Assembly (NCBI RefSeq): GCF_018873765.1 | Contig: NC_057923.1 | Span: 6,398,413 to 6,462,412 of the forward strand | DNA: 64,000 nucleotides | Source of the DNA: Telopea speciosissima | Lineage: Eukaryota; Streptophyta; Magnoliopsida; Proteales; Proteaceae | Reading direction: 5' to 3' | In this document: positions 26,281-50,795 of the stretch, in pieces | How positions within the stretch are numbered: the stretch's first letter is position 1 | How the letters are laid out: the number at the start of each line of letters is the position of its first letter | Program-made: the position numbers and the translations under genes | Notes under the pieces: generated by a model | What the model was told of the DNA's origin: nothing | What the model saw: the letters and a program-made list of their open reading frames with translations, nothing else | The model's database searches: none

Positions 26281-26525
26281 TTTCAATGGCACAAATGTGA
26301 CTTGGAGAGTCTATCTCATGATCTTCTGGGGACATGCACTTCAATTGGCAAGCCACCGGTTGAAAAAAAAAAACTAGTCGTTTTTTTTCCTTTCTAGAAA
26401 AAGGTTTTTCTAGTCTAGGAATACAAATCCAAGTGAAAGGGTGACTTTTAATGGGATAAATGTGACCAAGGAGAGTCTATCTCATGACCTCCTGGAGGCA
26501 TGCACTTCAACTGGAAAGCTATTAA
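26281..26525. repeat. Imperfect direct repeat pair
   Basis: About 75 bp around GAGAGTCTATCTCATGA and CATGCACTTCAA occurs at about 26281-26358 and again at about 26450-26525 with several differences. No coding content. It looks like an old local duplication. Confidence 0.6.
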
Positions 26526-26866
26526 ACGGTTTAAAGTGATGGTAAATTGTTTAAACATAAACAAATATTAGTAATATGTAATGAAATAATAAATAATTAG
26601 TATATATGTAATCATAAGATAAATAATATTTTAAAGAAAACATATAAGGATGCAATTCATATTTCCATTTCAAGAAAAAAAATTATAAGGCATGTAATAA
26701 AAAGTAACGTTTGAATAAAAAAAAGTTAAAAAACCGTATAAAATCATTCCAAACCGATTAAATCGAAACGTTTATAAATGGTTTTGGTTTTAACATGTGA
26801 AACCCTTTAGTAAACAGTTTGGTTTTGGTTTTACCTAAAAAAACTTGCACAGAACCGTTTAACACC
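26526..26866. repeat. hAT-like remains
   Basis: AT-rich stretch bounded by AAACGGTTTAAA-like and AACCGTTTAACACCCTTG-like words resembling degraded hAT-type ends. No target duplication was found and the assignment is tentative. Confidence 0.3.
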
Positions 26867-26918
26867 CTTGTTATGCGCTTGGTAAAGTTGTGAAGCGTTA
26901 AAAAGTCCATTCTATCAG

Positions 26919-27330
26919 AAGGTCTGAAATTCGGTACTCGTACCGAACCTGTATGGTTCCGGTTTGGTTTTGGTTCCTAGTCGGTTTCTACACAATTTGG
27001 TTCTGGTTCTTGTAATTGGTTTATATTATAATATTATAGTATTATAAAATCTAATACTAATACTAGTAAAATATGTATTATAATATATTAATATTTTATT
27101 ATAAAATATTAGCATTATACTATATTAATGTACTATAATATATTGTACCCAAATTTGATTGGGTTTCTGTTCTAATGGATGGTTCCTATGTTGGATCCGA
27201 AAAGTGATCAAGAAAGTGATCAAGTCTCGCCTTAGTTTTGGACTCTAACTAAAATATATTAGGTTTTGTTTAGTTCGATTCTAGTTATTTGGTTTCGGTT
27301 TCCAATTTCAATTCCAATTGGACACCCTTA
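26919..27330. mobile_element. hAT-like non-autonomous element, old
   Basis: The right end reads CCAATTGGACACCCTTA and the left end AAGGTCTGAAATTCGG is a weak inverted match. GGTTCCGGTTTGG words are frequent near both. Its right half is shared with the related segment at 39717-39980, so it inserted before that duplication. It is non-coding. Confidence 0.45.
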
Positions 27331-27480
27331 CTTTTTAGGCAAAGTACATTCGTGTTGTGTTGTTCGTGACGTTGTAGCAACATCGTTGGTTCTTATATCA
27401 TTCTATATGAGAAGTGAGAAGCCGAGAAGTCGATGTTGCTCCTTCTGCTCCCTTTTCTTCTTCGAAAGGGATCCCGAAGT
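27050..27480 (+). repeat. Diverged copy of the 5' region of the gene at 40108
   Basis: This stretch aligns, in the same orientation, with 39717-40115, the promoter and 5' UTR of the 1693-aa protein gene. Shared landmarks are CCTATGTTGGATCC, TTATATCATTCTATATGAG, GAGAAGTGAGAAG and TGCTCCTTCT. Agreement stops around the start codon, which is missing here (GAAAGGGATCCCG against GCGAAAGGGAAAGGG). It is therefore a truncated, gene-less duplicate now about 12 kb away because of the LINE/LTR insertions. Confidence 0.75.
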
Positions 27481-27727
27481 CGGAGAGGGAGGGAGAGGGG
27501 AACGGGAGCTGGGCGGCCCGGATTGGGTAGCTAGAGATTTGGTAAAGTATTATTAGTTTGTGAAATTACAATATAAATCCTTTATATTTTGAATAACATA
27601 GATGAAAAGTGAGACTAAAAAAGTTATAGTGAAATGAATTGTTTCACTGGGCGTAGTGACAAGAAAGAAACTACATGTATTAATATAGAGAGTGAAGTCA
27701 TTACTATAGTGTATTAATATACTATAG

Positions 27728-27758
<31 letters not shown>

Positions 27759-27777
27759 TTTTTGGTCGAAAGAAAAT

Positions 27778-29740
27778 TTATTGAAGAGAACGGGAGGCAC
27801 TCCTGGCGTCTGAGACAGTATCCTCAGCTAACCAGGGATCGGAAATGGGCCAAACCATCCTTCCCGAAACGGATAGGGCCCTCCTGGCAAGGCAATCTGC
27901 AATAGAATTAGCAGTCCTTGAAACAAAAATAAAACTGCAGTCATCCAAGTAAGACATGATGTGCCGAATATCCTCCAAGATCGGCAAAACCTTCAGATCA
28001 GCAGGCTTCAAAGGGTCCTGGAGATAAGAAATGACCTGCATACTATCACTCTCCACCATGACAGAGAGAGTACCTTTTGAAATCGCCTCTAACAGACCTT
28101 CTCGAATCGCCATAGCCTCTCCAACTAGGATATCATCAAAGGGGAGTGGGTTGGGGACCGTAATACAGCATTTACCTTCATGATCACGAATTAAGAAACC
28201 CACCCCTCCCCGCTTCAAGACCGAGCCGAAGGAAGCATTGCAACTGATCTTATAAAAGCCAGCCGGGGGGGGGACCATGCCATACAAGATGATACATGAC
28301 CATGCACAGACTCGATCTGCGAAGAGGCTTGTCCATTACAGGCATTTAAGAACTCACCACAAGCTTTGTGGGTAGCCTGCACTACATCCTCCCCTATCCA
28401 AGACCTACCTCCAAAGACCAAGTCATTCCTAGAAATCCACAGGTACCACAACACAAAACAACAAAGTGCTGTAACTTCCTTGAAGCTTGCTTTGCCGCGA
28501 GCCAAAAGGGACCCCCAACCATTTATAAATTGATGGAGTTCAAGGTTGCTGTCACCAGACATCAGAGAGCTTAAGTTGCACCCAAACCAAATAGCATGGG
28601 CGAAGGTGCAATGAAGCAAAATGTGATCAATTGATTCCTCAGGTTCGCCACACCTACGACGGTGAGTATCAATAGGTATACGACGTTGGTGGAGCGCAGC
28701 AGCAAAGGCCAAACCACCAGCCACAGCACGCCAGATAAAGGTTCTTATTTTGGGCATGGTGTGGCTGGACCAAATTCTCTTCCAAACAGTAGACGGCACA
28801 ACCTCCCAAGAATGCGACTTACCCGTTGACGGAGCTACTGCCTCATGAGCCTCCCTTTGATTGTAAAGGAGGTGGTATGCACTCTTCACCGAATAAACAC
28901 CATTTTTAGTAGCTCCCCAAAGCAAGGTATCGTTTCTAGGAAACATGCTTAGCTGGATTTTCAAAATTGCTTCACGATCACTGGGGTGGAAAATTTTTTC
29001 AAGACTCTCAACCTTCCAACATCTGTTGGGCTAATCGATCAAACCCGCTACCAAATGAGGGGGATTAGCCTCGGTAGGGGGTGTTGCACCCGAAAACCAG
29101 GGAGAGAGGGAATCCAGTTATCCGACCAGATCTGAACCGATTCACCCCCTCCAATCTTCCATAGCAACCCATCTTTCAACACTCTATGCCCTTCGAGAAG
29201 ACTCCTCCAAGCCCAAGATGGGCTAGCACCTAACTTAGCAGACAGAAAATCTCCATTAGGAAAATACACAGCTTTCATAAACCTCCCCCACATTGAGTCT
29301 GGTTCAGCCCAAAGTCTCCAAGCCATCCGAGAGAGAAGAGCTTTATTTTGCAATCCAGGATCATGAAATCCTAAACCACCTCTTTCTTTAGATCTGCACA
29401 AGCGCCTCCAAGATATCCAATGAATTTTTTGCTTGTCTGAAGCGTCACCCCAGAAGAAATTAGAGGCTTCCTTACGAATCCGAGCATGATGGGAAGCGGG
29501 AAGTTCGAAATGGGAGTTGGAGTAATTTCCAATGGAGAGAGCCACAGACTTAAGCATAATTTCCTTCCCCGCATGTGATAGCAGCTTATTCTTCCAACTT
29601 GAAAAACGTCGCCCCACCTTAACTGCCAAGTCCTGAAAAAGGGAGGTTTTGGAAACCCCAAAATCCACAGGCAACCCCAAGTATTTAGAAGGACCCTTGG
29701 CATAGGACACCTTCAGAATACGGGAAAACCATCTCTTGAA
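27778..29740 (-). pseudogene. L1 ORF2, C-terminal half
   Basis: On the minus strand: end of reverse transcriptase (SYAKGPSKYLGLPVDFG), then WKNKLLSHAGKEIMLKSV and NFFWGDASDKQKIHWISW. Next is a zinc-binding RVT domain (WKRIWSSHTMPKIRTFIWRA, CGEPEESIDHILLHC). Last comes RNase H (GEAMAIREGL, VESDSMQVISYL, RTANSIADCLARRA). The first RNase H catalytic Asp position reads Asn (KISCNASF). At least two frame breaks separate these parts, near 29048 and 28215-28290. It joins the 37396-39617 half across the LTR insertion. Confidence 0.85.
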
Positions 29741-29745
29741 GCGGC

Positions 29746-31513
29746 TGTTTGCAAGAAATAATTAACCGCAAGCGTACGGGTCAATCGTAGCTACAGGTCG
29801 AACACGAGGAGGTCAACCTTGAATAAATTTCCACTTTTAATTAACGCGAAGTGTACAACTTACCAAATATAGAAACAACCTAGATATGGAAACTACCAAT
29901 TATGGAAATTACCAAATATAGAAGCAACTAAATTACCAAAGATAACAAATTAAAAATAGAAACTCGGCAACCGCTAAGGAAATGGATGAATTAAAAGCAA
30001 GAAAGTCACTTGGGAATGGGTTCCACCATGAGAATTAGGGGCGGATCAACGACTAGCATATTAGGACAAAGCATGCATACGGCCTAGGTCGATAAGATAT
30101 GCGGCACGGCTCATATACGGTTAACATATCCTATGAAAATAGTGCTCATACAACATACAATGTAAACAAAAAAATAATACATGAACATAATGGTGTCACA
30201 ATGGATACGGCTAACGAACATGTATATATTTTCCCTTAGAATGACATACAAGTTGTGGACGGTCATCCATTGTAAGTCTAATATTGATCATGTCCATTAA
30301 TCACATAAACAATGCTAGCCATCAATTCTTCCTTCTCTCATGTTTTCACCCACTCCCAAGAGGAGAGGTTTAGCTAGCCATGAAAGCAATGACGAGGAGC
30401 GAAGGATTGATGGAGAAAAAGACATAGAAATTACTAAAACTAAAGTTTATAAGAAGAAGAACTTAGCTGATTCGAATAACTCCAATGAAGATGATTCCGT
30501 CACTTGAATCCCATCACTTGAAGGCGCATCCAATATTAAAGAACAAATTACCAAAGTATATAATGAAAATTACACATATGATCTTAGGGATGGGAAATAA
30601 AAATTATCCTAACAATGATTCTAAAAATTACATATGATAACCTAAATACATAAGATCTAAAAAAAAACTCAAAAGAAAAGGAAGATGAGAGAATCGGGAA
30701 TGGGAAGAGAGAGTTATCTAAAACTTCAATTAAAACCAAAAAGTTGAAGAGAAAAACGAATTGGAAGCTTGCTGTTCATTACATGAAAGAGAAATAAGAA
30801 CGAAGACCAATAGAAGAAACATAAAAATCCCAAAGAAAGCTCTCTCGAGAAAAGGGCGTTTGCTGTTCTTATATGCCCATCGTGCTCTGTGTGATGTCCT
30901 CTCTACCGTTCTTTCTTTACAAAGGAAGTGAACTCCCAATTGGAAACTACTAAAACCGTGGTTGATTCCCTTCCAATTCCAACTCCCTAAAATCCATGTG
31001 AGAATGAGAGAGAGAATTTTAATTCTTAATCTACAACGTGTTATCATATGAGAGAGAGTGAGAGATTTCTTTCTCTTTTTTTATTTTTTTATTTTCTATT
31101 CCTTCATCATAAATAACTTCACTAAAATTCATTATTGGGCTATATCTTTGTATCCCGAGCCCAAATGGAACCAGCCCGAGAATTAAAGTTGCACCGTTTT
31201 GAATTCAGGACGATATGAGCCCAATATCCACTATTTTCTGAAAGATTCTCAATTTATCAAAATTACCCTTATGCCCCTATGCTTGATTTTACTCTCTTCT
31301 TCTTCTTCTTCTCTTAACTCGGATCGACTTGCTCTGGTCTTCACTCCTGTTTTCATTGAATCTTCTTCTTTTCAGCTCCTTTAGCTTTATTACTCCACTT
31401 CTATTAAAATTATCCTAAAACACGAAAACACAGAAAATACCTCGAGTAGCTCCGTAAAATGTGAGTAAAATGCATGCTTATGACCCTAAGATTTCACACA
31501 TTCGTGCTCATCG
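29746..31513 (-). repeat. LTR (downstream LTR of the Gypsy element)
   Basis: A 1768-bp copy starting TGTTTGCAAGAAATAATTAA, about 99% identical to 35621-37390. Because the element reads on the minus strand this is its 3' LTR. Confidence 0.92.
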
Positions 31514-33450
31514 ATTCCCCACACTTAGACTTTGCTCGTCCTCGAGTAAAGCAAAAGACAAACTAACCTAGAATACAAAAAGAATCTAACTCACTTTCGT
31601 AGGAATCACGGTTGCACTTAGCACGTGCAACAAGCCTTTAAACCCCTAGGTTACCCCTAGTGAACGAGTTGTGTCTCGTGAGTGTTTGCAGTGAATAAAC
31701 ACACAAAATTCAATTTGTAAATCCATACTATGGCCAAGATAAAGAATGCAGCCCCAAGATAATTTACTTTGAGATTTTCTAGATGTTCCCCACACTTGAA
31801 CTTTATTATCCCACTGCAGTTGGAGAAGCTGTCATACATCTAACTTAGAGAGGTTTGGGGTAGGGTGAGTCACTTTGTTTTCCTTGAGATTAGATCGAGT
31901 AGGTCATCTAGGCTACAAAAGATTTCAACTCGGAACCTTGGTAGAACCTTTAAACACATACACAATTTCAATTTCACTTTGATTTTACTTGCCATATTTT
32001 TCTAAGTATTGAACTCAAATGTCCCTCCACTACAATTGGCTTGAATGACATGCAAGGCTTGCACAGACACCCAAGTTACTAAGTAGGGTTGGAATAGATT
32101 CTCAGTGCATATATCATTTGATTGTCACATTGTGGCTTTAGACATTGATGCGTATGAGTTCAAACTTCTTTTTTTTTTTTTTTTTTTTTTTCCAAGACAC
32201 ATTACTCCAATCCGTGCAATGTCTTGACTTCTTAAGCTTTCTAGGTGGCTCTTGTAGCGAGTTTTAGGCCAATCACTCTCAAACCAGGACGACTTTAAGG
32301 AATTAGGTGTAAACACCCCTCGGGCTTACTTACTCAAACCAAATAGGCTACAAGCCAAGACTGGATCAAAGAGTAAATAATTTTTTTTCTTGGCAATCGC
32401 TATATCATGCAAGTATATCATGGTTCAACCTTAGCACCTAGCCAAAACTCGTGTAACAGGATGACTAACAAAATCGGCTCTCTTAGTAGACAGCGTACTT
32501 TCAAAGAATTTAAAATCCCTTTGATCGGTATATTTCAATTCCCTTCTCAATGGAATTTTTATTACTTCAAAGTGTAGGGTATTTTGGATGCTCTCAAAGT
32601 CTTTCAGAAAAGTAAACTAAAGAGGCTACACACTCGCTCTCAAACCAAAGTAAAGACTACAATTTAATGAAATCCCCCCCATACCTAAATGATGCAGTGT
32701 CCCCAATGCATGAAAAAAATAATAATAATAAAAAAATAAGGACAAAGAAGAGGGGCGACCGGATATGATCATGGTGGCTCAAAATAAGGAGGTGCATGGA
32801 AATCCATGACCTCGTAAGAATGTGGTGAAGAAAGTGGCATGAGAGAGGAATTAAAAGATGTGCTAGAGATTGTAGAGTGTGTACCCTTACCCGGATCAAA
32901 TATTACGGGGCCTCCATTGTGTTGTTGGGACAACACCTCTTGTTCCTTTTAGGCGGTTCACTGGTGGTGACTTGGGAAGAGAAGTAGATAGATTACCATC
33001 GGCTCAACAGGTGGTGGCTTGGTCCACAAGTTAGAAGGCTCTCCCCATACTTGGATTGAGGCAAGTCCTCTAGACATTGATTAATACCGTGTTAAGAGCG
33101 ATTGCAACCAAATCGGGTGGTTCAAAAATTAGATGCACGTCTTCATCTAAGCATGGTTGCTTTCCCAATCGAAAGACATTAAAATCACGAGATGCATTCC
33201 CAAAAGACAGCCTCATCGGACCATTCCTACAATTGATCGAGCATTGCTAGTAGCTAAGAAAGGTCTACCAAGGATAATTGGGATTTGACCTTTGATATTG
33301 GTCACGAGTTGGGTATCTAGGACTATGAAATCCACGGGAAAAGAAATTCCCCAACTTTTAATAACACATCCTCAATTACTCCTTGGGAGTCTTGGTGATC
33401 TATCTCGCCAATTGTAATGTGACGAGATGTAGGCTTAAGGTCTCCTAAAC

Positions 33451-33660
33451 CTAATTGTTGATACCTGAATATGGCAATAAATTGACACTAGCTCCTAGAT
33501 CAAGAAGGGCATGGTGAATTCTAGTGTTACCAATCATACATGAGATAGTTGGGCAACCAGGATCCTTATACTTAGCCACTATCTCATTGTGTGTGAACGA
33601 GCTCACATTGGCGATCGGGAAGGCTTTCTTAGGTACATTGATTTTTCTTTTCGAGTACAC
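33451..33660 (-). other. Protease-like part of the Gypsy element
   Basis: The frame contains KDPGCPTISCMIGNTRIHHA followed by LDLGASVNLLP, the active-site region of a retroelement aspartic protease. Fossil fragment. Confidence 0.75.
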
Positions 33661-34924
33661 AAGTCCTTGAGGACCTTTGCATAGGTAGGTACACAGGAAA
33701 TAGCATCTAAAAGAGGGATGTTAACTTGCACACTTTTTAGGACATTTAAAAATTTTTCAATAATTGCATCCGTCTTGTTGCTTTTAAGCCTATTGGGAAA
33801 TGGAGCCTTAGAGACATAAGTCTTCTCGGTGGCTCTTCATGTTTCTCTTCACTAACCACTATAGGTTCATCGAGGACGAACCTTGGACGGGGGCTGATCA
33901 TTCACAACTATGGGAGGGTCATGTGGGACACTTACAATGGGAGGTGGATGAGGAAGATTCACAATATCAACAGGAGGCTCGAGAAGTTACGGGAGTTGGT
34001 TGAATTGGAACCTCTTGTTGGTACTCACGTCCACTTCTCGAGCATATATGGCATTGCATTGAGTAGAGGGTTCGAGTGGTATGGACTCGATGGATAGAGT
34101 TCAGGTGAGTGTGAGGTGGATGGGATACGAGAGGTCCTAGGGTTCGGATCTTGCGACTCTGCATCTTACCCTTTTCCCTTTCATGGAGAGTATTGGTCGG
34201 TTGAGAGATTTGCCTCTCTATGTTATGTTGGCTGGTCATGAATGTGCTCATGAGAAGCTCCATACTCTTCTCAAGGAATTTATCTGGTAGACTCATCACT
34301 ATTTTTCAAAAATTCAGGTGGTTCTTTGATTTATCATTGGGGTTGGTGGTGTGGGTCGGAGATGATTGGGAGGGGGACAAATATAGGGTTAGTCTGTGGG
34401 GAGCAAGCGAGCCTTGGATTGGAAGGTGGAATGCGGATGGACCAACTTGATTGGGGCCTTGGTTCCATGAGAAGTTAGGGTGATTTCTCCACCCAGGATC
34501 ATAGGTTCCACTATAAGGATTGTTCATTCCATGCACACTCTCATAGATTCCATGCCCACTAGACCGATTAGGGCACTCATCCATCACATGTGATGAGGAT
34601 TGGTATCCGATATACAAAGGGGCGATCGATAAACCTGATTTATCGGGAAGGTCCCTTGGTCATTATGGCTTCTAGTCTTGTAATAAGACTATCCAACGAG
34701 CCTCTTTGGCTACGATTCCCTCTACCAAAAATCCCTCACCGAGTTTTCATTTTCATGAGTGGATTCCCACTCTACTGGTCTTGTCCGCTAAGTCAACCAA
34801 AAACTCCCAAGCTTGATTTTCATCGGTGAATGATGTGAATCCGATTGGGCACATGGATTCCACCAAGCTGCTTGGTTTGATAATCTATACCCTCATAGAT
34901 GATTTGACACGAGATGCCAAGTAT

Positions 34925-35341
34925 CTAGGCCATGGTGAGGACACTCTTGAAGAAGGTTGTTGAATCTCTCCATGAATTTGGAGAATGATTCATTTGGCTG
35001 TGTGCGAAGCTGAGAATGTCATTCCTAATCCTATTGGTCTTATGCAAGGGAAAGAACTTCTTTAGGAAGACAAGCGTAAATTGATCCCACGTAGTTATTG
35101 AGTCTCTAGGCAAACCATAGAGCCACTTTTTACCTTGATCCTTAAGTGCAAAGGGGATGAATCTCAACTTAACCGCATCATCAGTCAATTGTTGCATCTT
35201 AATGAGCACACATACCTCCTCAAACTCCCTAAGAAACAAATATGCATCTTCGTTAGCTACCCCATGAAAGTGGGGCAACATACTAATGAAATTAGATTTA
35301 AGCTCGTAATTGTTTCCACAGGCGGCGGGTAGCGAATGCAT
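34925..35341 (-). other. Gag-like part of the Gypsy element
   Basis: A retrotransposon gag core with LREFEEVCVLIKMQQLTDD, KLRFIPFALKDQGKKWLYGL and TTWDQFTLVFLKKFFP. Fossil fragment. Confidence 0.8.
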
Positions 35342-35508
35342 GAGGGTTGTGCAGCCCGTGCGGGATAAAGCGGTCCCTAAGGGTCATAGGTTGCCTCTCT
35401 CCTTCCTCAACCATGGTTGGAATCTCAATTCGTTCTATCCGGTTCTTAGAATTCCTCACCCAAACAAGCATACAAAAGCCACAATCCGAAATTAAAGCAC
35501 TCCTCAAA

Positions 35509-35555
<47 letters not shown>

Positions 35556-35620
35556 AAAACACTACGAATCAATTAAAATAGGAAACTAAACAAGCGTCAC
35601 CTCCCGGCGGCGCAAAAACT

Positions 35621-37390
35621 TGTTTGCAAGAAATAATTAACATAGCGTACGGGTCAATCGTAGCTACGGGTCGAACACGAGGAGGTCAACCTTGAATAAA
35701 TTTCCACTTTTAATTAACGCGAAGTGTACAACTTACCAAATATAGAAACAACCTAGATATGGAAACTACCAATTATGGAAATTACCAAATATAGAAGCAA
35801 CTAAATTACCAAAGATAACAAATTAAAAATAGAAACTCGGGCAACCGCTAAGGAAATGGATGAATTAAAAGCAAGAAAGTCACTTGGGAATGGGTTCCAC
35901 CATGAGAATTAGGGCGAGATCAACGACTAGCATATTAGGACAAAGCATGCATACGGCCTAGGTCGATAAGATATGCGGCACAGCTCATATACGGTTAACA
36001 TATCCTATGAAAATAGTGCTCATACAACATACAATGTAAACAAAAAAATAATACATGAACATAATGGTGTCACAATGGATACGGCTAACGAACATGTATA
36101 TATTTTCCCTTAGAATGACATACAAGTTGTGGACGGTCATCCATTGTAAGTCTAATATTGATCATGTCCATTAATCACATAAACAATGCTAGCCATCAAT
36201 TCTTCCTTCTCTCATGTTTTCACCCACTCCCAAGAGGAGAGGTTTAGCTAGCCATGAAAAGCAATGCGAGGAACGAAGGATTGATGGAGAAAAAGACATA
36301 GAAATTACTAAAACTAAAGTTTATAAGAAGAAGAACTTAGTGATTCGAATAACTCCAATGAAGATGATTCCGTCACTTGAATCCCATCACTTGAAGGCGC
36401 ATCCAATATTAAAGAACAAATTACCAAAGTATATAATGAAAATTACACATATGATCTTAGGGATGGGGAAATAAAAATTATCCTAACAATGATTCTAAAA
36501 ATTACATATGATAACCTAAATACATAAGATCTAAAAAAAACTCAAAAGAAAAGGAAGATGAGAGAATCGGGAATGGGAAGAGAGAGTTATCTAAAACTTC
36601 AATTAAAACCAAAAAGTTGAAGAGAAAAACGAATTGGAAGCTTGCTGTTCATTACATGAAAGAGAAATAAGAACGAAGACCAATAGAAGAAACATAAAAA
36701 TCCCAAAGAAAGCTCTCTCGAGAAAAGGGCGTTTGCTGTTCTTATATGCCCATCGTGCTCTGTGTGATGTCCTCTCTACCGTTCTTTCTTTACAAAGGAA
36801 GTGAACTCCCAATTGGAAACTACTAAAACCGTGGTTGATTCCTTCCAATTCCAACTCCCTAAAATCCATGTGAGAATGAGAGAGAGAGAATTTTAATTCT
36901 TAATCTACAACGTGTTATCATATGAGAGAGAGTGAGAGATTTCTTTCTCTTTTTTTTATTTTTTTATTTTCTATTCCTTCATCATAAATAACTTCACTAA
37001 AATTCATTATTGGGCTATATCTTTGTATCCCGAGCCCAAATGGAACCAGCCGAGAATTAAAGTTGCACCGTTTTGAATTCCAGACGATATGAGCCCAATA
37101 TCCACTATTTTCTGAAAGATTCTCAATTTATCAAAATTACCCTTATGCCCCTATGCTTGATTTTACTCTCTTCTTCTTCTTCTTCTCTTAACTCGGATCG
37201 ACTTGCTCTGGTCTTCAGCTCCTGTTTTCATTGAATCTTCTTCTTTTCAGCTCCTTTAGCTTTATTACTCCACTTCTATTAAAATTATCCTAAAACCTGA
37301 AAACACAGAAAATACCTCGAGTAGCTCCGTAAAATGTGAGTAAAATGCATGCTTATGACCCTAAGATTTCACACATTACTGTGCTCATCA
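35621..37390 (-). repeat. LTR (upstream LTR of the Gypsy element)
   Basis: A 1770-bp copy ending GTGCTCATCA, the 5' LTR in the element's own direction. A T-run of about 40 lies just inside it at 35513-35553, and a GCGCCGCCGGGAGG-like primer-site region (minus strand) adjoins it. Confidence 0.92.
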
Positions 37391-37395
37391 GCGGC

Positions 37396-39617
37396 CTTCC
37401 ACATTAGGGCTAAAGGAAATAGATGATTTCTTGTAGTTTATGGCTTGACCGCTGGCCCTGCAATAAATCTCCAAACAGTCCTTTAAATTAAAAACTTCTT
37501 CCAATTTCAGCTCCGAGAAAAGACAGCAATCATCGGCGAAGAGGAGGTGCATCAAAGGATCTGTTCTATTCTTCACACGGACTCCTTTAATCAACCCTTG
37601 GCACTCTGAATGGGCAATGACTGCACTTAAAGCGTGGCTGCAAAGGATGAATAGAGCCGGAGAAAGGGGGTCTCCTTGGCGTATGCCACGCGAAGGAATC
37701 ACCTTTCCCCTAATAGCTCCATTGATAATCAACTTGTAAGAGACCGATCACAAGCAATTAAGAACCTAAGAAACCCACTTTGTACTGAAGCCGAACTTCA
37801 AAAGAATTGCTTCAAGAAACTGTCATTCCACACGGTCATAAGCCTTCTTCATGTCTAGTTTTAGGGCCATAAACTTCTGTTTCCCTTTCTTCTTCTTATT
37901 GATGTAGTTGAAAAGCTCGTGGGCCAAAAAAATATTATTTGAAATGGACCTCCCTGCGATGAAGGCCGACTGAGTAGGAGCCACAAGTTGATCAAGAACA
38001 ATTTGCAATTGAGATGCCATCACCTTTGTAATGATCTTCACCACCACTGGGCATAAGCTAATTAGTCTGTAATGCTCAGCAGAAGAAGGATTAGAGTTCT
38101 TAGGAATCAAACACAGAAGGGTTTCATTACATTCCTGTGGTAACATGCCAGAAGTGAAGAAATTGCAAACAAAAGAAAACAGGTCCGGATGGGTAAAATC
38201 CCAGAATTTCTGAAAAAAGGCTGGCGGGAGACCATCAACTCTAGGGCTTTAAGCGGGGCCATATCAAAGAGGGCAGCTCTGATTTCTTCAATTGTAGGGG
38301 TAGCACACAACATAGAGTTCATATTATCACTAACCTAAGGTTGCACGCATGCCAATACATGATTAAGGGCGTCTGGGTCCAAACCTTCAGTCATGAAAAT
38401 ATCATGATAATAATCATGCATGAGCTGGTAAAACTCCCCTTCCTCATGAGTCCAGCTACCATCAGCTTTCTGAAGCTTTAAGATTCTATTGTGACTGCGA
38501 TGCTGAATGGTGGTCATGTGGAAGAACTTAGTCTTCCTGTCACATTGTTGCAACCAGCTAATCCGAGATTTCTGCCGCCACAACTCCTCCTCTCTTTCTA
38601 ACTCCTCATTAAGAAGAGCAGTAAGAGTCTCCTCCTGATCAAAGAAATCTTCCCCCATAGGACCCTCCTGTAACCTTGGAAGAGCTTGCTGAAGATTATT
38701 TATTTTTTTCTGTATGTGACCAAAGGTGTCAAGGTTCCATTTCTTAAAAACAGGTTGGATGCCCATGATTTTATGTTGTAAAATAGGAAGAGGAGAGGTT
38801 GGGACGGGATTGGACCAAGCTGTCTCAGCCGTGGACTTGCAGTCAGGGTGCCTGAACCAAGCTGATTCAAAACGGAAGGGGCGATTCCCCTTGCAACGCC
38901 CACCTTCAGAATCGATAATGAGCGGTGCATGATCAGAGTTCAGGGTCGGTTTTACAAACACCGCAGCATCTGGAAAGGTCGTCCTCCAAGCAACATTGGC
39001 CAAAGCCCTATCCAGCTTTATTCTAATGTTGGAAGAGCCCTTCCGCTTATTACTCCAAGTATAACAAGGGCCATGAGAGCCAATGTCCTCAAGTGCACAA
39101 GTGTTGACCATCCCCCTGAAGTTATTCAAGTCCCTCTGGCCATTGCGATTGCCCCCCTTCTTCTCATACCAAGCTAAGAAAGAGTTAAAATCCCCGTAAC
39201 AGATCCATTCCGCATGTCTACCACACCCAATGCGAGATCGGTGATCCCAAACCTCCTGTCTTCTAGCTCTAATCGGGGCTCCATAAACAGAAGTCATGAA
39301 GAAAATAGAACCATTGCATAATGTAACCTTAGAATCAATGAAATTATTATTCGAAAAAAGTACATCAATAGTAATCGAGTGGGTCCACAAGAGTGCCAAA
39401 CCCCCCCCAAAGCCTCTACTGCATCCATCGAAAAACAAGCATGCATTCCCAACTTTTTACAAAGACGCTCAATCTTCCCCTTTACAGCCTTGGTTTCAAT
39501 AAAAAAAACAATCTTAGGTTTTTCCACCCGGGAGAGATGAGTCAAGGAACGAATTATCGGGGCACTCCCCAAACCTCGACAATTCCAACTCAAGATTTTC
39601 ATTGATCCCCGTGGCAC
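37396..39617 (-). pseudogene. L1 ORF2, N-terminal half (endonuclease and RT)
   Basis: It starts MPRGSMKILSWNCRGLGSA, the standard beginning of the apurinic-type endonuclease, and continues with CYGDFNSFLAWYEKKGG, YTWSNKRKGSSNIRIKLDR and LNSDHAPLI. The reverse transcriptase follows: IPKNSNPSSAEHYRLISLC, LDMKKAYDRVE, GIRQGDPLSPALFILC and the LLFADDCCLF catalytic box. The frame changes near a C-run at about 39400, near 38240 and between 37730 and 37850, so it is a pseudogene. It is cut at 37396 by the LTR element. Confidence 0.88.
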
Positions 39618-39716
39618 TGAAACTCCCCAGCAGCCACGGGTTCCAAGTATAAAAAATGGTCTCCAGTTTCCTGATCCACCATATCCACCACATCATCAAC
39701 ATATACTATAGTATAT

Positions 39717-40107
39717 TAGTATTATACTATATTAATGTTATTATAGGTATTATACTATATTAATGTCCTATAATATATTGGTGCCCAAATTTGGTTTGGT
39801 TTTGGTTCTAACTATTAGTTCCTATGTTGGATCCAATAAGTAATCAAGTCCTACTTCAGCAGATTGTAATCAAATTCTATTCGATTCGATTCGGGTTAAA
39901 TGTATTGTGAGTTCGATTTCGGTTATTTGGTCTGGATCCGGTTTCGGTTTTGTATTCCAATTCCAATTTGGTACCCTTACTTTTCTGCAAAGTCCATTCG
40001 TGTTGTGGGCGGCACTGTAGCAATGTCGCGGTCTCTTATATCATTCTATATGAGAAGTGAGAAGGCGAGAAGCCGCTGCTGCTCCTTCTCCTCCCTTTTC
40101 TTCCAGA
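39717..40107 (+). promoter_or_regulatory. Promoter / 5' UTR region of the 1693-aa protein gene
   Basis: This is the region between the LINE target duplication and the start codon. The part up to about 39980 is derived from an old hAT-like element (GGTTTCGGTT words and a TACCCTTA end). The part after that (TTATATCATTCTATATGAG, GCTGCTGCTCCTTCTCC) is probably the transcribed leader. It is duplicated at 27050-27480. The exact transcription start is unknown. Confidence 0.5.
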
Positions 40108-43100
40108 ATGGCGAAAGGGAAAGGGAGTGATGATGGTTCGGGAGATGCTGATTCAGGTGCTTACACAGTTTTCATGGACAGCAATTTTGGTACCCATCTC
40201 GTCATGATCGTAGCTGCGAAGGACACAGTCCGCGACCTTAAAGGTACTCCTAACCTCTCGACAACCCCAATTAAAGAAACTAGTTCTGTTTACCTTTCCG
40301 CACTTGTATCTGCGCAGGACAGCAATTTTGTCTGAGTTTTTAATATTAGATTTTTCTTGTTCTTCGTTTTACCTTTGCTGTTTTGAGTTGTTGTCTTTTA
40401 TTGTTTGATTTTGGTTGAACATCTAAGAACAATCTCCACCCTCCCCCCACCCCGACTCAAAAAAAGAAAAGGACTACAATGTTCTGGGTGATAGTGGTTC
40501 GTATTTTTTTTTTTCCTTTCTAAGCAGCTCAAACGTCCCATTTCATGCATATGGATTATTACTCCATTGGAGTAATCTGTAACTGAAAAATGCATTTCTG
40601 AAGCTAGAGGAGAATCTTAAAGCTTGTTAGGTACCTCTTGTTGTTTTATCATCTCCCCTTCTATGTAGGCATTCATTGAATCAATGCATGTTGGTTTACT
40701 GTGGGTAAGAAAAGTTAAAAAACCTGAAGATCAACCTGGACTCCTGTATAGCCAAATAAGCACTTTCCTATTGACATTTTAATGATGTTGGGTTCTCAAG
40801 GGTTTAGATGACACACTGAGCAAGTGTAGGCTGCACAAAACACTGCACAAAACACCGGTGATCCATAGAGATCTCCTTATGTGGTTCTTTTGATCAAAAT
40901 ACACATGGACCGTGACATGCCCCTGCCCCATAGATGGTAAAGACCAGGTAATATCTCGGTTGGGGCTCATAATGGAGGAATGTGAAGGCTTTCCTTTATC
41001 TGATTTGTCTGGAAGGTTGGGCTTTTTGATGATGGGTGAGGGTTTCCAAGGATATCTACCTCCTTCCATGATCTGGTTTTCTGAGAATTCTGGTAGTGCT
41101 GATGGTGCTAGTATGGGCTGTAAAAAATGGACAAATTGGTTTTTTATAGGAAGAAAGGTAGGTTAGAACCCCCAAATTGCTGTCTTTCCCTTTTGCCCCT
41201 GTAGGTGACTTAGCTATATGTTATGAGGTATACTGAAGGATATGATTGTCATGGTAGGAATACCATAGTTTCCTGTGATGTGTTGGAGGCCATGGCGCCC
41301 TTGAGGCCAAATGCAAGAGTGAAATCGGTTGTCTCCAAGACAAGGTATACTGGTAGGTCTGTAATTGGATAACCGAAAATCTGAATTCGATCCGCATCTG
41401 TATCCATTTAGGGACATCCATATTCGTTTAGAGGTATCAGGAAAAAATCCGCCCAGAAAAAAATCTGAATACCTAATAATAAAAAATTAAGTAAATAATG
41501 ATCTTGAGGGTTTTTGAAGATTAAACAGGTTCTAGAATATGAGGAAAAGAGAATCATGATCTAATAGATATGGATTGAGAGTGAATTGTATCCGCTAGGG
41601 GGTGGAAGGTCCGGGTTACACAAGGCAGAGATGTAAACGAATGGTCGAAAATCCGAATTCGATCCGCATCCAAATCCATCCGAATCCATTTAGAGGTATC
41701 CGTATTCGGCCAGGGAATATCCAGATCCGATCACATCCGATCCGTTTACAGCCCTATATACTGGCAAAAGTGTCGTGCCTGATTGTGTCCTGACCTCCAA
41801 ACCACAAATAGGAGAGCTCCATCTCATCGCACTAGTTTCGAAAGATACTTGATGATTTCCTGTGTCCAAACTGTTGAAGTAACTACTAGGTGCTCAGATG
41901 CTTTACCCAGGCACTTGAATTCCTACAAGCATTTACACTTTGGAAGGCAACTTATTGTCTCTGGAGAAGCACCACCTTAGGGCGTCACTATGTTAGTTTG
42001 AGCCATGAAAATATGGGTTGTCAACATAAGGTAATTTTCTTATTGTACTCTTGTTTTAAGAGCCAGCCACTCCATTGAGCATTGATGCCTGAAAGGTTGA
42101 ATGGTTCAACTTCTTGTTTTTCGTTTGCTGACCTTGGTCTGTCAATGGAATCTTTATGGTTTGAAGGGTGAACGGGATCTCTCTATACCCACACCACTGT
42201 CATGATGTGTTAAGTTAGTTTAATCTTCCTGATTGAATGAGTTCGAAAGCATCACTTTAAATTGTGGTGGGTTTATCAATGTATCTTTATTTTGTAATTG
42301 TTGCTCCCCTCCTAGTTCCTATCTACATATTGGTGCTAGACAGGTTTGAGAAATCTATTACAAGTCCAAGGATTGAGAGAATTTGGGTTTGGAAAGGTCT
42401 CCTAACACAAAATTCACAGCATACATGCAGAAAATTAGGTATAACAACAACCGTAAATGATGAAAAATTTCCAAATGTAAGTGCAGAAAATTCACTCTGA
42501 TGATTAATGGAAATTTAATAAAGGATACATGATATGTCAGTACCTTCCTTTGTTGCTCCGCAAGTTGGGGTGCTGTGATCAGGTGCTAAGTTGCTACCAA
42601 ACTCCAAAGAATGTGTCCTCAGTGCCTCCTTGCTGTTAATTGATGAATCCACATAGTGTTTGGGGCTGTAATTTAAGCCAAAAGTTGGAAAACTGGGACT
42701 GGTATCACAATTTGGGGTAAATAGTGGGAAAATTTGAATAACCTGAAGTTTTTAAGTCAAAATATGGTGAACAGGTCTACGAATCCACATCAAACCACAA
42801 GCCAATCTTATTCTAGCCCAAAGAGATAAGGAATTGGGAGGGGGGGGGGGGAGAGAATGTGGTAGCCAATGAGAGAAGAAAGGGGAGACTTGGCTTCACA
42901 CCAACTAGGATTCACTCCAAGGTTTGCAGGGAATCAGTTATGCTGCAGATAATGAGAGAAAATCTCACAAGTTTCCACATATCTTCATTGCCTTCCATCC
43001 CAAAATACAGTCTTTTCTCTTTTAACCCCCCCCCCCCAAAAAAAAAAAGAAAAAAGAAGAGAGACAAACAACCCCCTAAGAACTTCTTTTCCAACAATGG

Positions 43101-46100
43101 TTACTCCCTAATAACTATTTCTCCAGCAATAACTTCCTAGTAACTACAACTCTTAGCATTACCACATTAGTACATAACAATTTAACACCAAATAAAAATA
43201 ATATACAACAAAATAAAACAAACTACACATATGTAAACGGAATTATGCATCCACACAAATTAATAAGGGACATCTAGCCACAATGAAGTGATGTGGGGCT
43301 GTGTACGACTGTGTCTTAATAATGAGAAACAGTTTGAGAGAGCTGAGTCAACCCCCAGAACTACTGGTCCAAGAACCAGAAATAAATAGACCTACTCCTC
43401 TGATTTGTCCTAAATCCCAGAGTGATGTCTTCATCACATACGTGTGGATATGCATGATTTCATATCTTTGGCCTGGTTGTTTCTCTAATTCTTGTCTACA
43501 ATTCTTATCTATAGCATTTTTGTCATATTCTTTCTTATATTTATCACTGATATCCAAATTTTCATATTTTTTTGACATGCAGAGAAAATAATGATTGAAC
43601 ACCCTTGTTGCTTTCCTAACATCGGCAAGATTATTGTCAATGCTTTAAAGGTATGCTTTTATTTTTTATTCTTATTCGGGGAATGCTTTGAGTGTCTGCT
43701 TCTCATAAAAGAAGGGGCTATGGATGATCTTGCTCAATAAACTCTATCCTTAGAGTGACATGGTATTGTGATCCTTGCAGGTAAAGCGCAAAGGTTGCTT
43801 TTATCACCTATCAGATTCTATGCTTGTTAGAAGTGTTTTCGACGGGTTTATGAAAACATGGTTTTTGCAATTTGATGCTTCTCGTGAAGGGGAACACAAG
43901 GAAAATCCATATCACTTGGAGCCTTGGGCTAGTGAGCCACCAACCCATGTGTTCACCATAGATGGCCCTTTGCCTGAAACAAATACTCTTCTACTTGATT
44001 GTCCTTCCAAAGATGTGTCCATTTTAGCTGTTCCTACGGTTCCTCAAATTGCAAACAGCCAGCCAAGGGGTATATTTCCTCAAAACTCGTCTGATGGCAA
44101 ACAGAAACTTAAAAATGCTGATTCAGAGGGTTTATCTATTAGACTTCTTGAAGATGATCATTTGATTCCTCAAAACCTATCAGATGACAAACAAAAACCT
44201 AAAAATGCTGATTCAGGTAGGTTAAACGAAGATGGCCCTTTGCTTAGTTCAGGCAATAAGACAAAGAAAAAGAAAAAGAATTATAAACCATCAATTACCA
44301 ATGATCAAGTAGACTATGCAATACCTTTTGGAAAAAATGTAAGGGCAGAGACTTCAGAGGAAGCTTTGGGAAACAATCATGGAGATTTGGAGGGAGAGAT
44401 TCATGCAGCATTGGCTAATGAACAGACTAATGCTGCTGATCCTTTTGTTGCTCTTGACGTGTGTGAACCTGGTACTAGCAAGGTGGAGAGAGGGAAAACC
44501 TCTGACCACATAGAGGCATCCAGGGTAAGAAAGTCAAAAAGGTCAAAGAAACATCAGACTGCCAGTATGGAAGGACTTAATCTGTCTGTGGTAGCTGAGC
44601 CTGGTAAGCTCACAAAGGATGGCACAACTTTGGCGTATGAAAATGTTTGCAGTGACAACAGTGTTGGTGATGTTGTAAGGGGAGAGACTTCTGAGGTAGC
44701 TTTTGGAATCAACCATGGAAATTTGGGAGGAGAGATTGATCCAGCATTGGCTTCTGGGAAAACTGATGCCGCTGATCCTTTTGTAGATGTTGATATGCGT
44801 AAACCTGGTACGAGAAATGTGGAGAGATGGGATACCTCTGACCTTGTAGAGACATCCAGAGGAAAAAAATCAAAAAGGTCAAAGAAACATCAGGCTGCCA
44901 GTGTGAAAGGACTTGATCTGCCCATGATTGCTGAGGCTGGTAAGCTAGCAAAGGATAGCACAACTTTGGCGTATGATAATGTTTGCAGTGACAACAGTGT
45001 TGGTGATAATGTAAGGGGAGAGACTTCTGAGGTAGCTTTTGGAATCAACCATGGAAATTTGGGAGGAGAGATTGATCCAGCATTGGCTTCTGGGAAAACT
45101 GATGCCGCTGATCCTTTTGTAGATGTTGATATGCGTAAACCTGGTACGAGAAATGTGGAGAGAAGGGATACTTCTGACCACGTAGAAGCATCCAGACGAA
45201 AAAAATCGAAAGGGTCAAAGAAACATCGGGCTGCCAGTGTGAAAGGACTTGATCTGCCCATAATTGCTGAGGCTGGTAAGCTAGCAAAGGATAGCACAAC
45301 TTTGGCGTATGATAATGTTTGCTGTGACAACAGTGTTGGTGATGATGTAAGGGGAGAGACTTCTGAGGTAGCTTTTGGAATCAACCATGGAAATTTGGGA
45401 GGAGAGATTGATCCAGCATTGGATTCTGGGAAAACTGATGCCGCTGATCCTTTTGTAGATGTTGACATACGTAATCCTGGTACGAGAAATGTGGAGAGAA
45501 GGGATACCTCTGACCATATAGAGGCATCCAAAGGAAAAGATTCGAAAGGGTCAAAGAAACATCAGGCTGCCAGTGTCAAAGGACTTGATCTGCCCATGAT
45601 TGCTGAGGCTGGTAAGCTGGCAAAGAATAGCACAACTTTGGCGTATGATAATGTTTGCTGTGACAACAGTGTTGGTGATGATGTAAGGGGAGAGACTTCT
45701 GAGGTAGCTTTTGGAATCAACCATGGAAATTTGGGGGGAGAGATTGATCCAGCATTGGATTCTGGGAAAACTGATGCCGCTGATCCTTTTGTAGATGCTG
45801 ATATGCGTAAACCTGGTACGAGAAATGTGGAGAGAAGGGATACCTCTGACCATGTAGAGGCATCCCGAGGAAAAAAATCGAAAGGGTCAAAGAAACATCA
45901 GGCTGCCAGTGTGAAAGGACTTGATCTGCCCATGATTGCTGAGGCTGGTAAGCTAGCAAAGGATAGCACAACTTTGGCGTATGATAATGTTTGCTGTGAC
46001 AACAGTGTTGGTGATAATGTAAGGGGAGAGACTTCTGAGGTAGCTTTTGGAATCAACCATGGAAATTTGGGAGGAGAGATTGATCCAGCATTGGCTTCTG

Positions 46101-49100
46101 GGAAAACTGATGCTGCTGATCCTTTTGTAGATGTTGATATGCGTAAACCTGGTACGAGAAATGTGGAGAGAAGGGATACCTCTGACCACGTAGAGGCATC
46201 CAGTGGGAAAAAATCGAAAGGGTCAAAGAAACATCAGGCTGCCAGTGTGAAAGGACTTGATCTGCCCATGATTGCTGAGGCTGGTAAGCTAACAAAGGAT
46301 AGCACAACTTTGGCGTATGAGAAGGTTTATTGTGACAACAGTGTTGGCGATGATGTAAGGGGAGAGACTTCAGAGGTTGCTTTGGGAAGCAACCATGGAA
46401 TATTGGGGGGAGAATTTGATGCAACATTGCCTCCTAAGCAAACTGATGCTGCTGATCCTTTCGTTGGTATTGATATGTATAAACCTGGTACTGTCAAGGT
46501 GGAGAGAAGTGAAACCTCTGACCATATAGAGGCATCCAGAGGAAGAGAATCAAAAAGGTCAAAGAAACATCAGGCTGCCAGTGTGGAAGGACTTAACATG
46601 CTTGAGGTTGTTGAGCCTGGTAAGCTCAAAAAGGAGAGCGCTACTTTGGTGCATGAGAAATTTCAGTGTGACAACAGTGATGGTGATGACGAGACTGGTA
46701 AAATTGAGAAGGAGAAAAAGATACTGTTACAGAATGAAGATCCCAAACCAACATTGTCGGTAGAACCATATTCTGTGGGTTTAGATAACACAGAGATGAA
46801 CTCTAAAGGACGGGTTATCTCCTCCAAGTCATTGCAGTCCTCAGACATGTCAGGAACTGGGGATTCTGATGATAAAAAAAGAAAGAAGTCAAAGAAATCT
46901 AAGGGTTCTGATCAAAAGGGCCAAACTTCATCTTCGGGCATAGAAGATGCTAATGGTGTTGGAGGTGCCATTCCTTTAAAACCTGAGCTTGACAAAGTTT
47001 CTTTTAGCAATGAAACTAATGAAAAGCATAACACTCTGTTTCAAAATGAGAAGACAAAGGTATCAAAAGTGAAAGCTGTAAATACTCCAGTAACAGGCAT
47101 TGACAAGGATGCTGATAATGCATGTGGGAATCAGGTAGACATTGTGCCTCAAATTCAAGTCGCCAAAATCCAGGAGGATGTAGAAGGTAGTGACTATAAA
47201 GTGAAAAAGAAGTCAAAAAAGACTGAAACTTCTGCCAAGAGTCTCCCAGATCCAATGGGAAATGTTGTCACTGTAGATCCTGCACTTCCATTTATTAAAA
47301 AGAAAGGGAAAACTATCCAAACTAAAAAGACAGAGAAAACAAGGTTCGGTAGAAAAGGTCCTACAGAACAATTAACGGATTCAATGTTAGAAGCTGAGAA
47401 AGATATTGGGACTAGGATAGTATGTTCCAAGCCATGCTCGGTGCCTGGAACCAATGACCATTCTGAAGTCCCATCAGATATTTTTGCATGCAACGCAGAG
47501 AGACCACCTCATGAAGCTGATATTAGAGATGATAAACATTCAAGTGGCTGTACTGACAAAGGTGATGACCACATGGAAGTTCCCAAGTTTGAAAACACCA
47601 AGATCAGCTACATTGATAACTTTGGGCCTAGTCAGAGGCAACATGAAGTCGCTCCTGGTAAAGACCTTGATGTCAAGGATATTCAAATTGAGAGGTCAGA
47701 TAAAGAACTTCTGTCAACTAAGAAAACAAAAAAGCATAATGTGGGTTCTTTAGGTACCTCACCTGGTTTACAGAAGTCCCTCAATTCAAATGACTGCCAG
47801 GGATTCAAAGAGAAGCCTCAAGATGATTTCTTTGATGTAGTAAAAGTTCAGGTACCAATGCCACAGACTAAAAAGGTTGAAACCATGGCCAATACTCACT
47901 ATGGAAAAACTTTAACAACTGCTGGGGATAGGGCAAAAGATCCATTTTCTCGTTTCCATGAAAAATGTGATTCCATTGCTCATGAAGCTTCAAAGACCAA
48001 AATTGTTGATGCTTCTGGTATCAGTAGTCCTGTGCATTCATCTGTGGTCCGAGTTCCCTTCAGAGCTGGTGATAATGCTTTTGTGAAAGAAAATAGTGCA
48101 GATTGGGACGCATCAGGCTCTACCTCAGAAAGCCCTGATGTAGGAGTTCACAAAAACAGACAAGGCAGAGAGATCAAGTCACAGTCGAAGTGCAATCCTG
48201 TGACAGCAATAAAAGCTTCAAGTAAGAAAATTGGGAAAGTGCTTAACAATTCTAGTTATCAGAAGAGCTCGTTTGCTACTTCAGGTACAATATTTAATGA
48301 CACTAGTAGTGACAGTTCTGACGATGAAGGTGAAATAAACAATTCAGAGACCAGTACCCAAAGCCCTTCGGATAGTTCATCCTCATCTTCTTCTGATTAC
48401 TTGGAAGGAACAAACCACAAACCACAAAATGGTAAATATACTTGTTTATATACATACTTATGTACATGCATACATACATACATTTACTTTCATGCCCAAT
48501 ATATTGCATGTAGAACAGTGAAAGTAGGATTTAGCCTACCTTGCCCCTCCTCATCTCAAGCCTGGTTTTTGGCTTTTCTCCTTCAGATTGCCATTTTCGA
48601 GATGGGTCTTGGTATTTGAGCTCTCTTCTCTGTATCTCTGTGCTTCATGTCCTTGTTTATAAATTTGGAACTCATTTTCTACTTTGATCTTGTTGTTTAT
48701 GTTTGAGCTAATGTCTTTTATGTTTCTAAATGTATCTGTTAAAATGCCACAGCTTTGTATGGTGGGAAAAGAAAGGAAAGTGGAGGAGACAACCTCATTT
48801 ACTCACGGTAAGTAGAATTTTTTATGTAACATCCTTTCTTTTTCTTCACAACCCCAATCCCTACACCTGTTCTCTCCGCTGTGGTAGTGATCAACACCTG
48901 ATTGCCTATTGATTTTCTTCTCAATTAGCCATTGTCCTTTTTCAATTTCTTCCTTGAGTTTGAGTACTTTAAAGGAACCTCACACCCTAACCATGCTGCA
49001 AAATACATTGCAAAGCTAGTTTGCTTTACTAATCTTCTCTTGTTCAGGAGTAATGCTTATCATATGTAGCATGCAGGGGGTAGCATGCACTTCGTGCACA

Positions 49101-50795
49101 GCATGATCTGTGAATGTGGATTGTTGCGCATGGCTACCTCAATGAACTTTTCAAGAGCAGGAAATGAACCTGGGGATGAAATTTTTGAGACAACTCAATA
49201 TATGTTGGCAAATATTAGCTGTGTTAATTTTTTATTACAAAAATCATGAGTTAATGAAATTAGATAATTAATTTAATCAGGAACAATCAGATTTATTATA
49301 AGAATTTCAAAACAAAATGCCATCTATGAGCTTGAAATTGGTGGTCAACCTCTAGAAGACCCTTGTTGCATATGGGGAGGTCCAAAATGGCAAAAGGTCA
49401 TTTCTACTGTCATCGTGCATATATTTGTGAAGCATATGCATGAACTTTAGGCCCACCTTCTGATGCAGTTAGGGTGTCCAATTGGGCCTTGGAATTATTT
49501 CTTTTGGCCCATGGTTGGGTTCTATTGGTCTTGAACTTGTTATTTTTGGGATTATTAATGTAATGGGCAACTTTTATAAGCTCAAAAGTTGGGATTTAAG
49601 GGGGGTACATGGGATTAAGTCTAGAGTAAAGTTTGATGGTCCCATGTTGGTGTCGGTAGTTGGTTAAGAGACTAATTGTTAGTCTATGAGCTAGTTTAGG
49701 AAAATCTAAAATTCTAGAGTCCTTAGCTGTTCAAGAGTCCTAATTATTAGGAAGTCTAGTATAGGAAGTTTAGATATTTTCTGTTTTCCATATATATGTA
49801 ACCACTAACCACCCCATCATTTGGATTTGGAATTAATGGATTGAATTTTTGTTTGGAAACTTGTGAGTGGCTCTTCTCCCTCTTCCCTCTCGATATCTTC
49901 TCTCTCCTCGCTCTCGGTAATCACTTCCTCTTCTCTTTATTTGCTATTCTGTTTTTATATTTCCCTCTTATCTTTACTTTCTATTTTCTGTCCTATTTCT
50001 TTGCTTTATTTTGTGAATAACAAACATATTTCTCTCTCCTACCTTCTCCTCCATCTAATCAATGGTTTAGAAAGATATGTTAGAATCTTCCCTCTTCATT
50101 TACCATCGAGCTTTCTCTCTCCACCATTGCACTGCTTCGATTTCTATATTTTGGGATATTTTGTTTCTGATTTTATTCCTAGGTATTGGGCAAATTATAT
50201 ATTATATATTATTTTTAGGCCCAGCCTGAGCCCAATCCATGTAATTATCTGTAAATATTGGTAAATATTGTTTGAAAAAATCGGGTGAATCAAAATTGAA
50301 CATAGGTTAACCCATCTTACCTGTTTGCCTGCCAGATATACATTGGGTGAGATTTTTGTCTAGATATCTTAGGTGGAATCCACTGAATGGGTCATTTGAT
50401 TCTGTTTCTCCAAGTTTCTGGTTGGTCTTGGAAAAAAATGTTTAGTATTTCGGAGCTCACAAAAAGGAGATTTTGGGTTTTTAACTATTTATATACTGAA
50501 CATCAGTACTATGACTCCTTTTGAGCTCAACCCCTGGGGAGTTATCAACTTGGGAATTTTGTTCCCTTTCTTTCTGATAAATATTATTTATCCTTTGTAA
50601 ATTATTTGTCCTCCTTTGAACAGATCTGGAGGCCCAGCGGAGTACATGACCTTGGATATGATCCTTAAATGTTCAAGCAGCTACAAGAAGGCAAAGCTAA
50701 CAGCTTCTCAATCCCAACTTGAGGAAACTGAAAGCCAACCTGTTGATTTTGTTCTGGACAGTCTGGCCGACCCATATCCTATAACCCCATCGTAG
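40108..50795 (+). CDS. Large repeat protein with ubiquitin-like N-terminus
   Basis: Five exons, 40108-40243, 43583-43650, 43781-48431, 48753-48807 and 50624-50795, with matching phases give 1693 aa. Residues 15-90 ([43 protein letters not shown]) have the spacing of a ubiquitin-like beta-grasp fold and match the start of an uncharacterised plant protein family. Residues 255-1040 are in-frame tandem repeats of 112 aa, each with a KKSKxSKKHQ basic patch. Further basic clusters ([18 protein letters not shown]) look like nuclear localisation signals. Near residue 1580 lies an acidic serine tract ([11 protein letters not shown]...SSSSSSSDY), followed by a conserved-looking C-terminus ([20 protein letters not shown]). 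I infer a nuclear or nucleolar scaffold; the biochemical function is unknown. Intron 1 is 3.3 kb and holds a hAT element. Confidence 0.85.
41354..41756. mobile_element. hAT-type non-autonomous element
   Basis: A 403-bp element in intron 1 of the 1693-aa protein gene. Its ends TAGGTCTGTAATTGGAT and (inverted) TAGGGCTGTAAACGGAT are flanked on both sides by the identical octamer TATACTGG (41346-41353 and 41757-41764). Subterminal words ATCCGAATTCGATCCGCATC recur inside. The perfect 8-bp duplication and end sequence support hAT. It is non-coding. Confidence 0.85.
44339..46690 (+). repeat. In-frame 336-bp tandem repeat array
   Basis: Six full 336-bp units start at 44606, 44942, 45278, 45614, 45950 and 46286. 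A partial unit precedes them (44339-44605) and a short partial unit follows (46622 to about 46690). Spacing is exactly 336 bp throughout with no frame shift. The inner units (44942-46285) are nearly identical, while the outer ones differ clearly, the pattern of recent expansion or gene conversion inside an older array. Confidence 0.97.
49440..49930. repeat. Possible solo LTR in intron 4
   Basis: Sequence with LTR-like layout: short AT-rich core CATATATATGTAACC near 49788, then a pyrimidine-rich leader (TCTTCTCCCTCTTCCCTCTC near 49873). No second copy or coding part in the window. Weak assignment and open borders. Confidence 0.25.

Follow-up and report, generated by a model that had tools for sequence, protein, structure and literature searches.

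A predicted coding tandem repeat of 112 residues in Telopea speciosissima that probably predates a block duplication and probably grew by mid-array gain of units in one of two homoeologs

We describe a coding tandem array in a 64,000-nucleotide stretch of the Telopea speciosissima genome (NC_057923.1, positions 6,398,413 to 6,462,412, forward strand; hereafter the window, to whose positions coordinates refer), located on contig C8 of a genome of 822.9 Mb in 1,287 contigs. Seven complete units of 336 bp, or 112 amino acids (aa), follow one another head to tail and in frame from 44339 to 46690 (at 44339 + 336n) with zero indels; the period is a multiple of three, and the frame is open through all seven units. 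AG/GT boundaries and in-frame splicing predict a five-exon gene, whose product of 1,693 aa carries the array as residues 255-1038. A second copy of this gene, its homoeolog, lies at 4.91 Mb on contig C3, within a block that matches window positions of about 19.4 to 60.8 kb in colinear order (~40 kb in BLAST pieces), and a likely more distant relative is found on contig C9. The array is coding by prediction, from the splice sites and from the second genomic copy with its matching exons. The predicted exons, the units and associated features are as follows, dN/dS being the ratio of nonsynonymous to synonymous divergence.

40108..40243, plus strand: predicted exon 1, with the ATG and the first part of a putatively ubiquitin-like N-terminus; GT donor, in-frame splice
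43583..43650, plus strand: predicted exon 2, AG/GT boundaries, in frame; counterpart exon in the copies on contigs C3 and C9
43781..48431, plus strand: predicted exon 3, a 4,651-bp open frame containing the array, from open reading frame and splice boundaries
44075..44254, plus strand: two diverged in-frame copies of a 30-aa segment upstream of the array, an older duplication (spacing 29 aa in the homoeolog)
44339..44674, plus strand: unit 1, diverged; nearest homoeolog unit is the first (85.1%)
44498..44578, plus strand: constrained basic core (columns 54-80) as exemplified in unit 1; recurs every 336 bp
44675..45010, plus strand: unit 2, inner clade
45011..45346, plus strand: unit 3, inner clade
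45347..45682, plus strand: unit 4, inner clade
45683..46018, plus strand: unit 5, inner clade, with the fewest private changes
46019..46354, plus strand: unit 6, inner clade, departing from the inner consensus over the final ~35-70 bp
46355..46690, plus strand: unit 7, diverged
48753..48807, plus strand: predicted exon 4, AG/GT boundaries, in frame
50624..50795, plus strand: predicted exon 5 with the stop; conserved C-terminus, dN/dS 0.26 over 47 codons

The exact, indel-free period of 336 bp announced in the original prediction was recovered by Tandem Repeats Finder (44337-46689, period 336, 7.0 copies, 0% indels, score 3614) and by sequence identity at fixed lags: at lag 336 this was 0.79-1.00 in 84-base windows with both halves within the array, falling to 0.54 and 0.71 where a window straddled an edge, against a background of 0.18-0.40 both at the adjacent lags of 335 and 337 and, beyond the array, at lag 336. 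The six full and two partial units counted earlier come from dividing the same sequence in a different phase; in the coding frame there are seven full units, and no partial ones across 44339-46690. Units 2-6 differ from one another at 10-21 of 336 positions (93.8-97.0% identity), so that to call them almost identical was a mild overstatement; even in the closest pair 3.0% of bases differ. The first and last units are indeed diverged, as had been noted, with 56-68 differences in 336 (79.8-83.3% identity) from the other units of the window. Open reading frames on the minus strand also recur with the unit, and were set aside as its mirror frames.

Outside the array, the region of exon 1 is conserved in the homoeolog (40078-40245, 82%), and its intron phases are common to the distant relative on C9. 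Exon 5 has two genomic matches, one in the window and one on contig C3, where the frame ends a few codons earlier. The predicted N-terminus gave a weak phmmer match to ubiquitin (42 residues, 10-51). Exon 3 had no match in the PDB, and a search of phage records also found none; a score for Pfam PF03610 (EIIA-man) on exon 3, 24.1 against a cut-off of 21.4 bits, was rejected as a sum of weak matches to the repeats, no single stretch of which passes. The C9 locus (at 1.88 Mb) came from a weak search match (E 0.082, 35% over 52 residues), adjoined by exon-1-like and exon-2-like stretches with the same intron phases as the window gene; once joined, the two N-termini share 48% identity across 85 residues. 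The unit profile finds no match in the C9 open frame, which lacks an array, and the locus is likely, from these sequence comparisons, to be a distant paralog sharing the same three-exon N-terminus.

The homoeolog on C3 carries an array of its own, with three units of 336, 336 and 330 bp, and the two arrays begin and end at the same aligned places. Among the matches listed, at least ten (7 + 3) at E <= 1 with 15 candidates scored, the unit is confined to these two genes. Synonymous divergence (dS) between the homoeologs is 0.361 in the N-terminus (dN/dS 0.35), 0.373 before the array (0.44), 0.272 after it (0.63) and 0.372 in the C-terminal exon, with a pooled value of 0.30 for the last three; for a neighbouring dehydrogenase exon it is 0.43. 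For the whole-genome duplication in macadamia, PMC8752631 gives a synonymous divergence (Ks) of 0.35 and an age of about 42 million years (My), or 46.8 My in its abstract. The colinearity of the pair, and dS values (0.30 and 0.43) near this Proteaceae peak, suggest that the block duplication is probably the whole-genome duplication described in the family. Since the three units of the homoeolog have the same outer edges as the window array, the repeat itself would predate the block duplication (dS ~0.30).

The history of the units was examined in a tree of all ten, wherein units 2-6 form one clade with 100% bootstrap. The in-frame tandem duplication proposed at the outset is upheld, the inner clade being younger than the split of the homoeologs. 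Its supposed recency is not: dS among the inner units averages 0.074 (range 0.040-0.114 over ten pairs), about one quarter of the ~0.30 between homoeologs, which by linear scaling (Ks 0.35 = 42.3 My, macadamia-derived) corresponds to roughly 5-14 My, an estimate with wide error because each unit has only ~76 synonymous sites. Diverged units within one array stand at dS 0.22-0.31. Deeper nodes of the tree received 36-61% (GTR+G, ultrafast bootstrap) or 28-63% (HKY+G, standard bootstrap), and none of four constrained topologies was rejected (approximately unbiased [AU] p 0.31-0.65). Among units 2-6 there are 36 variable sites, of which 33 are private to one unit (3-10 private substitutions per unit) and three are common to two units; since their formation these units appear to have diverged largely on their own. 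Two of the three shared sites conflict, site 77 uniting units 4 and 5 and site 334 units 2 and 5; some states found, within the inner set, in unit 2 or unit 6 alone also occur in unit 1 or 7, and identical tracts are as long as 154 bp (lag 336) and 118 bp (lag 1008). Change-points relative to the inner consensus were sought by permutation in window units 1, 6 and 7 and in the three homoeolog units. Unit 6 changes after column 302 (interval 269-305, p 0.006), and there was no significant change-point in unit 1 (p 0.45), unit 7 (0.16) or the first (0.81) and third (0.72) homoeolog units. Amplification at a single breakpoint phase predicts the same change column in units 1 and 6, which these values for the two units do not show.

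Across all ten units, 29 of the 112 columns are invariant. Using one inner unit with units 1 and 7 of the window and the three homoeolog units, the ratio of the proportions of nonsynonymous and synonymous differences (pN/pS) was 0.45 in columns 54-80, a basic core of 27 aa, and 1.0 and 0.95 in columns 1-53 and 81-112, respectively; the best 24-column window also begins at column 54 (147 of 5,000 permutations were as good), and there is one basic patch in each of the seven units. From these ratios the unit is read as a 27-aa basic core on a nearly neutral spacer of ~85 aa. The open frame implies selection for reading frame, as invoked in the original prediction. That protein selection kept the inner units alike is unlikely, pN/pS being ~1 outside the core in the diverged units, with the caveat that pooling the inner units gives 0.53 across the unit as a whole. 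The array is predicted to be disordered, and two AlphaFold2 models fit disorder, one of a single unit with a seven-unit alignment (mean predicted local distance difference test score, pLDDT, 53.9) and one of three tandem units as a single sequence (mean pLDDT 38.9). Long disordered regions containing Ser and Lys, spaced basic patches and more conserved ends are features of Nopp140/coilin-like disordered nuclear proteins; the likeness is one of general description, and searches with exon 3 yielded no sequence evidence of kinship (no PDB match and no convincing Pfam match).

As a separate observation, basic patches at 46859-47221 (residues 1095 and 1205) continue a spacing of ~110 aa downstream of the array. 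Degenerate units outside the array were considered and rejected, as searches of the flanks and of the C9 paralog with the ten-unit profile gave no significant match (best flank domain E 0.18), and local alignments of five segments gave p 0.04-0.65 by global shuffle and 0.08-0.68 by block shuffle. Downstream of its array (L002, about 3400-3711) the homoeolog has its own in-frame tandem duplication of 52 aa, absent from the window copy (dS 0.146). Since this and the older 30-aa duplication upstream of the array share the exon, in-frame duplication looks like a habit of the disordered region of exon 3.

Taken together, these data are probably best explained by an old tandem repeat in coding sequence to which units were added in mid-array, through slow and lineage-specific growth. 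A 112-aa segment of a long disordered exon would have been duplicated in frame before the block duplication, at which the parsimonious state is about three units; in the window copy the middle unit would then have been amplified, taking the array from three units to seven within roughly the last 5-14 My, through unequal crossing-over or tandem duplication, perhaps accompanied by conversion, as the homoeolog remained at three. The sequence does not distinguish unequal crossing-over from gene conversion. The pre-duplication origin and the mid-array amplification are the most likely course of events on the sequence evidence. As to function, each unit would present a basic core containing Ser and His, kept by purifying selection amid nearly neutral disordered spacer, and it is this arrangement that leads us to propose that the array most likely serves as a multivalent platform, presenting a basic motif at spaced intervals along a disordered tail that connects a putatively ubiquitin-like N-terminus to a conserved C-terminus, and may be used in nucleic-acid or partner binding in the nucleus. 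More tentatively, and with rather low expectation, the gene may represent an unnamed plant family of ubiquitin-like proteins whose disordered tails evolve fast (the window gene has no Pfam match at its N-terminus), and in which polyploidy was followed, in one homoeolog, by a rise in the valency of the core from three to seven. Were this so, the three-unit and seven-unit homoeologs would form a natural dosage series bearing on whether the number of cores influences nuclear condensation or nucleic-acid binding.

Several observations weigh against one or another part of this account. The tree gives no resolved orthology between the arrays, so that the figure of three ancestral units is drawn from shared edges and dates; the closest unit to unit 7 is not the third homoeolog unit, and reciprocal monophyly of the two arrays was not rejected (AU p 0.44). 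The second homoeolog unit matches the inner consensus through columns 1-29 (0/29 differ, vs 55/307 after; p 0.029, with six units tested in all), a possible sign of mosaic units. Columns of the core were chosen after inspection and unit pairs are non-independent, and the pooled pN/pS of the inner units (0.53) makes weak constraint on their spacers possible. The AlphaFold2 models are weak evidence for disorder because their alignments are shallow or absent, the N-terminal resemblance to ubiquitin is weak (E 0.072), and a Pfam search with the N-terminus gave no match. The duplication, compared in this one block, is putatively genome-wide, and the account of Eidothea, of the same family, in PMC13080361 notes limited self-synteny evidence of an ancient whole-genome duplication.

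Much of the same evidence bears on other histories. The conflicting shared sites are what exchange between units would give, and with the long identical tracts and the states that units 2 and 6 share with units 1 and 7 they favor concerted evolution, in which about seven units were already present at the block duplication, conversion homogenized units 2-6, and the homoeolog lost units. We consider this unlikely: it requires that extra loss, and the private status of 33 of the 36 variable sites implies that exchange among units 2-6 has been rare since they formed. Somewhat less likely still is independent amplification of the one segment in the two homoeologs, shortly after duplication of the block, a reading with which the failure to reject reciprocal monophyly agrees, as does the closeness of dS between diverged units of one array (0.22-0.31) to that of the flanks; coincident edges in the two copies are unexpected from separate events.

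A hypervariable coding variable number tandem repeat in active recent turnover appears improbable. Long identical tracts in neighboring units could sustain unequal crossing-over, but no pair of units exceeds 97.0% identity and the minimum dS is 0.040; in place of the near-identical units that would signal recent turnover, differences of 3.0-6.3% and dS of 0.040-0.114 are found, and a divergence of three versus seven units since the block duplication represents slow change. The closest pair differs ~4 times as much as the heterozygosity of 0.76% cited for T. speciosissima in PMC13080361. In the one haplotype represented, no pair of units is young enough to suggest current change in copy number; differences in copy number between individuals, proposed at the outset, are neither supported nor refuted by it. 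Assemblies can go wrong in arrays, but duplication or collapse of units by the assembler is very improbable here in view of the private substitutions in each inner unit, the open frame through all seven and the presence of an array of the same kind in the homoeolog.

Growth of an old repeat from its middle is a known pattern, and this case looks like ordinary expansion in a fast-evolving disordered protein. In coding repeats that expand in mid-array, as described by Bjorklund, Ekman and Elofsson 2006 (PMC1553488), the youngest units are likewise central and the outermost oldest, through internal tandem duplication; those repeats are Pfam domains, mostly several duplicated at once, whereas ours is a predicted disordered segment with no convincing Pfam match. 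The biphasic birth and death of repeats outlined by Persi, Wolf and Koonin 2016 (PMC5120217) offers a further parallel, in that homogenized units accompany a change in copy number relative to a sister gene and new copies diverge under relaxed selection, although the comparison there is of orthologues from close species and here of two copies in one genome. A literature search for the architecture of the window gene found nothing, which does not establish its absence from print. The locus thus offers a datable case of an array in a disordered protein that grew in one of two homoeologs, the sister providing a likely starting state and a yardstick of age, and it illustrates that an array homogenized in the middle need not be recent or variable in populations.

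The surroundings of the gene have a history of their own. Between conserved neighbors, ~16.5 kb of the window (23571-40077) is nearly absent from the homoeolog (<1 kb there), and is a nested insertion that stops shortly before the start of the repeat gene. Within it, pieces resembling long interspersed nuclear elements (LINEs) lie on the minus strand at about 27781-29761 and 37391-39692, three of their frames matching Exo_endo_phos, RVT_1 or zf-RVT and others being judged by eye. They are split by a long terminal repeat element with a gag match, whose long repeats (29746-31512 and 35621-37389) are 98.5% identical. Flanking the LINE-like pieces are two 350-bp stretches, 75% alike, at 27114-27460 and 39749-40103; the latter extends to the 5' leader of the array-bearing gene, and an upstream copy of the promoter region may therefore sit beyond the insertion. 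The dehydrogenase exon of the block lies at 19426-20067 (short-chain type, adh_short); the C3 block contains two stretches related to it. Farther away, a plastocyanin-like frame is present on the minus strand at 2354-2746 (Cu_bind_like, E 2.6e-10), beside a frame at 2794-3132 with a weak match (E 0.054).

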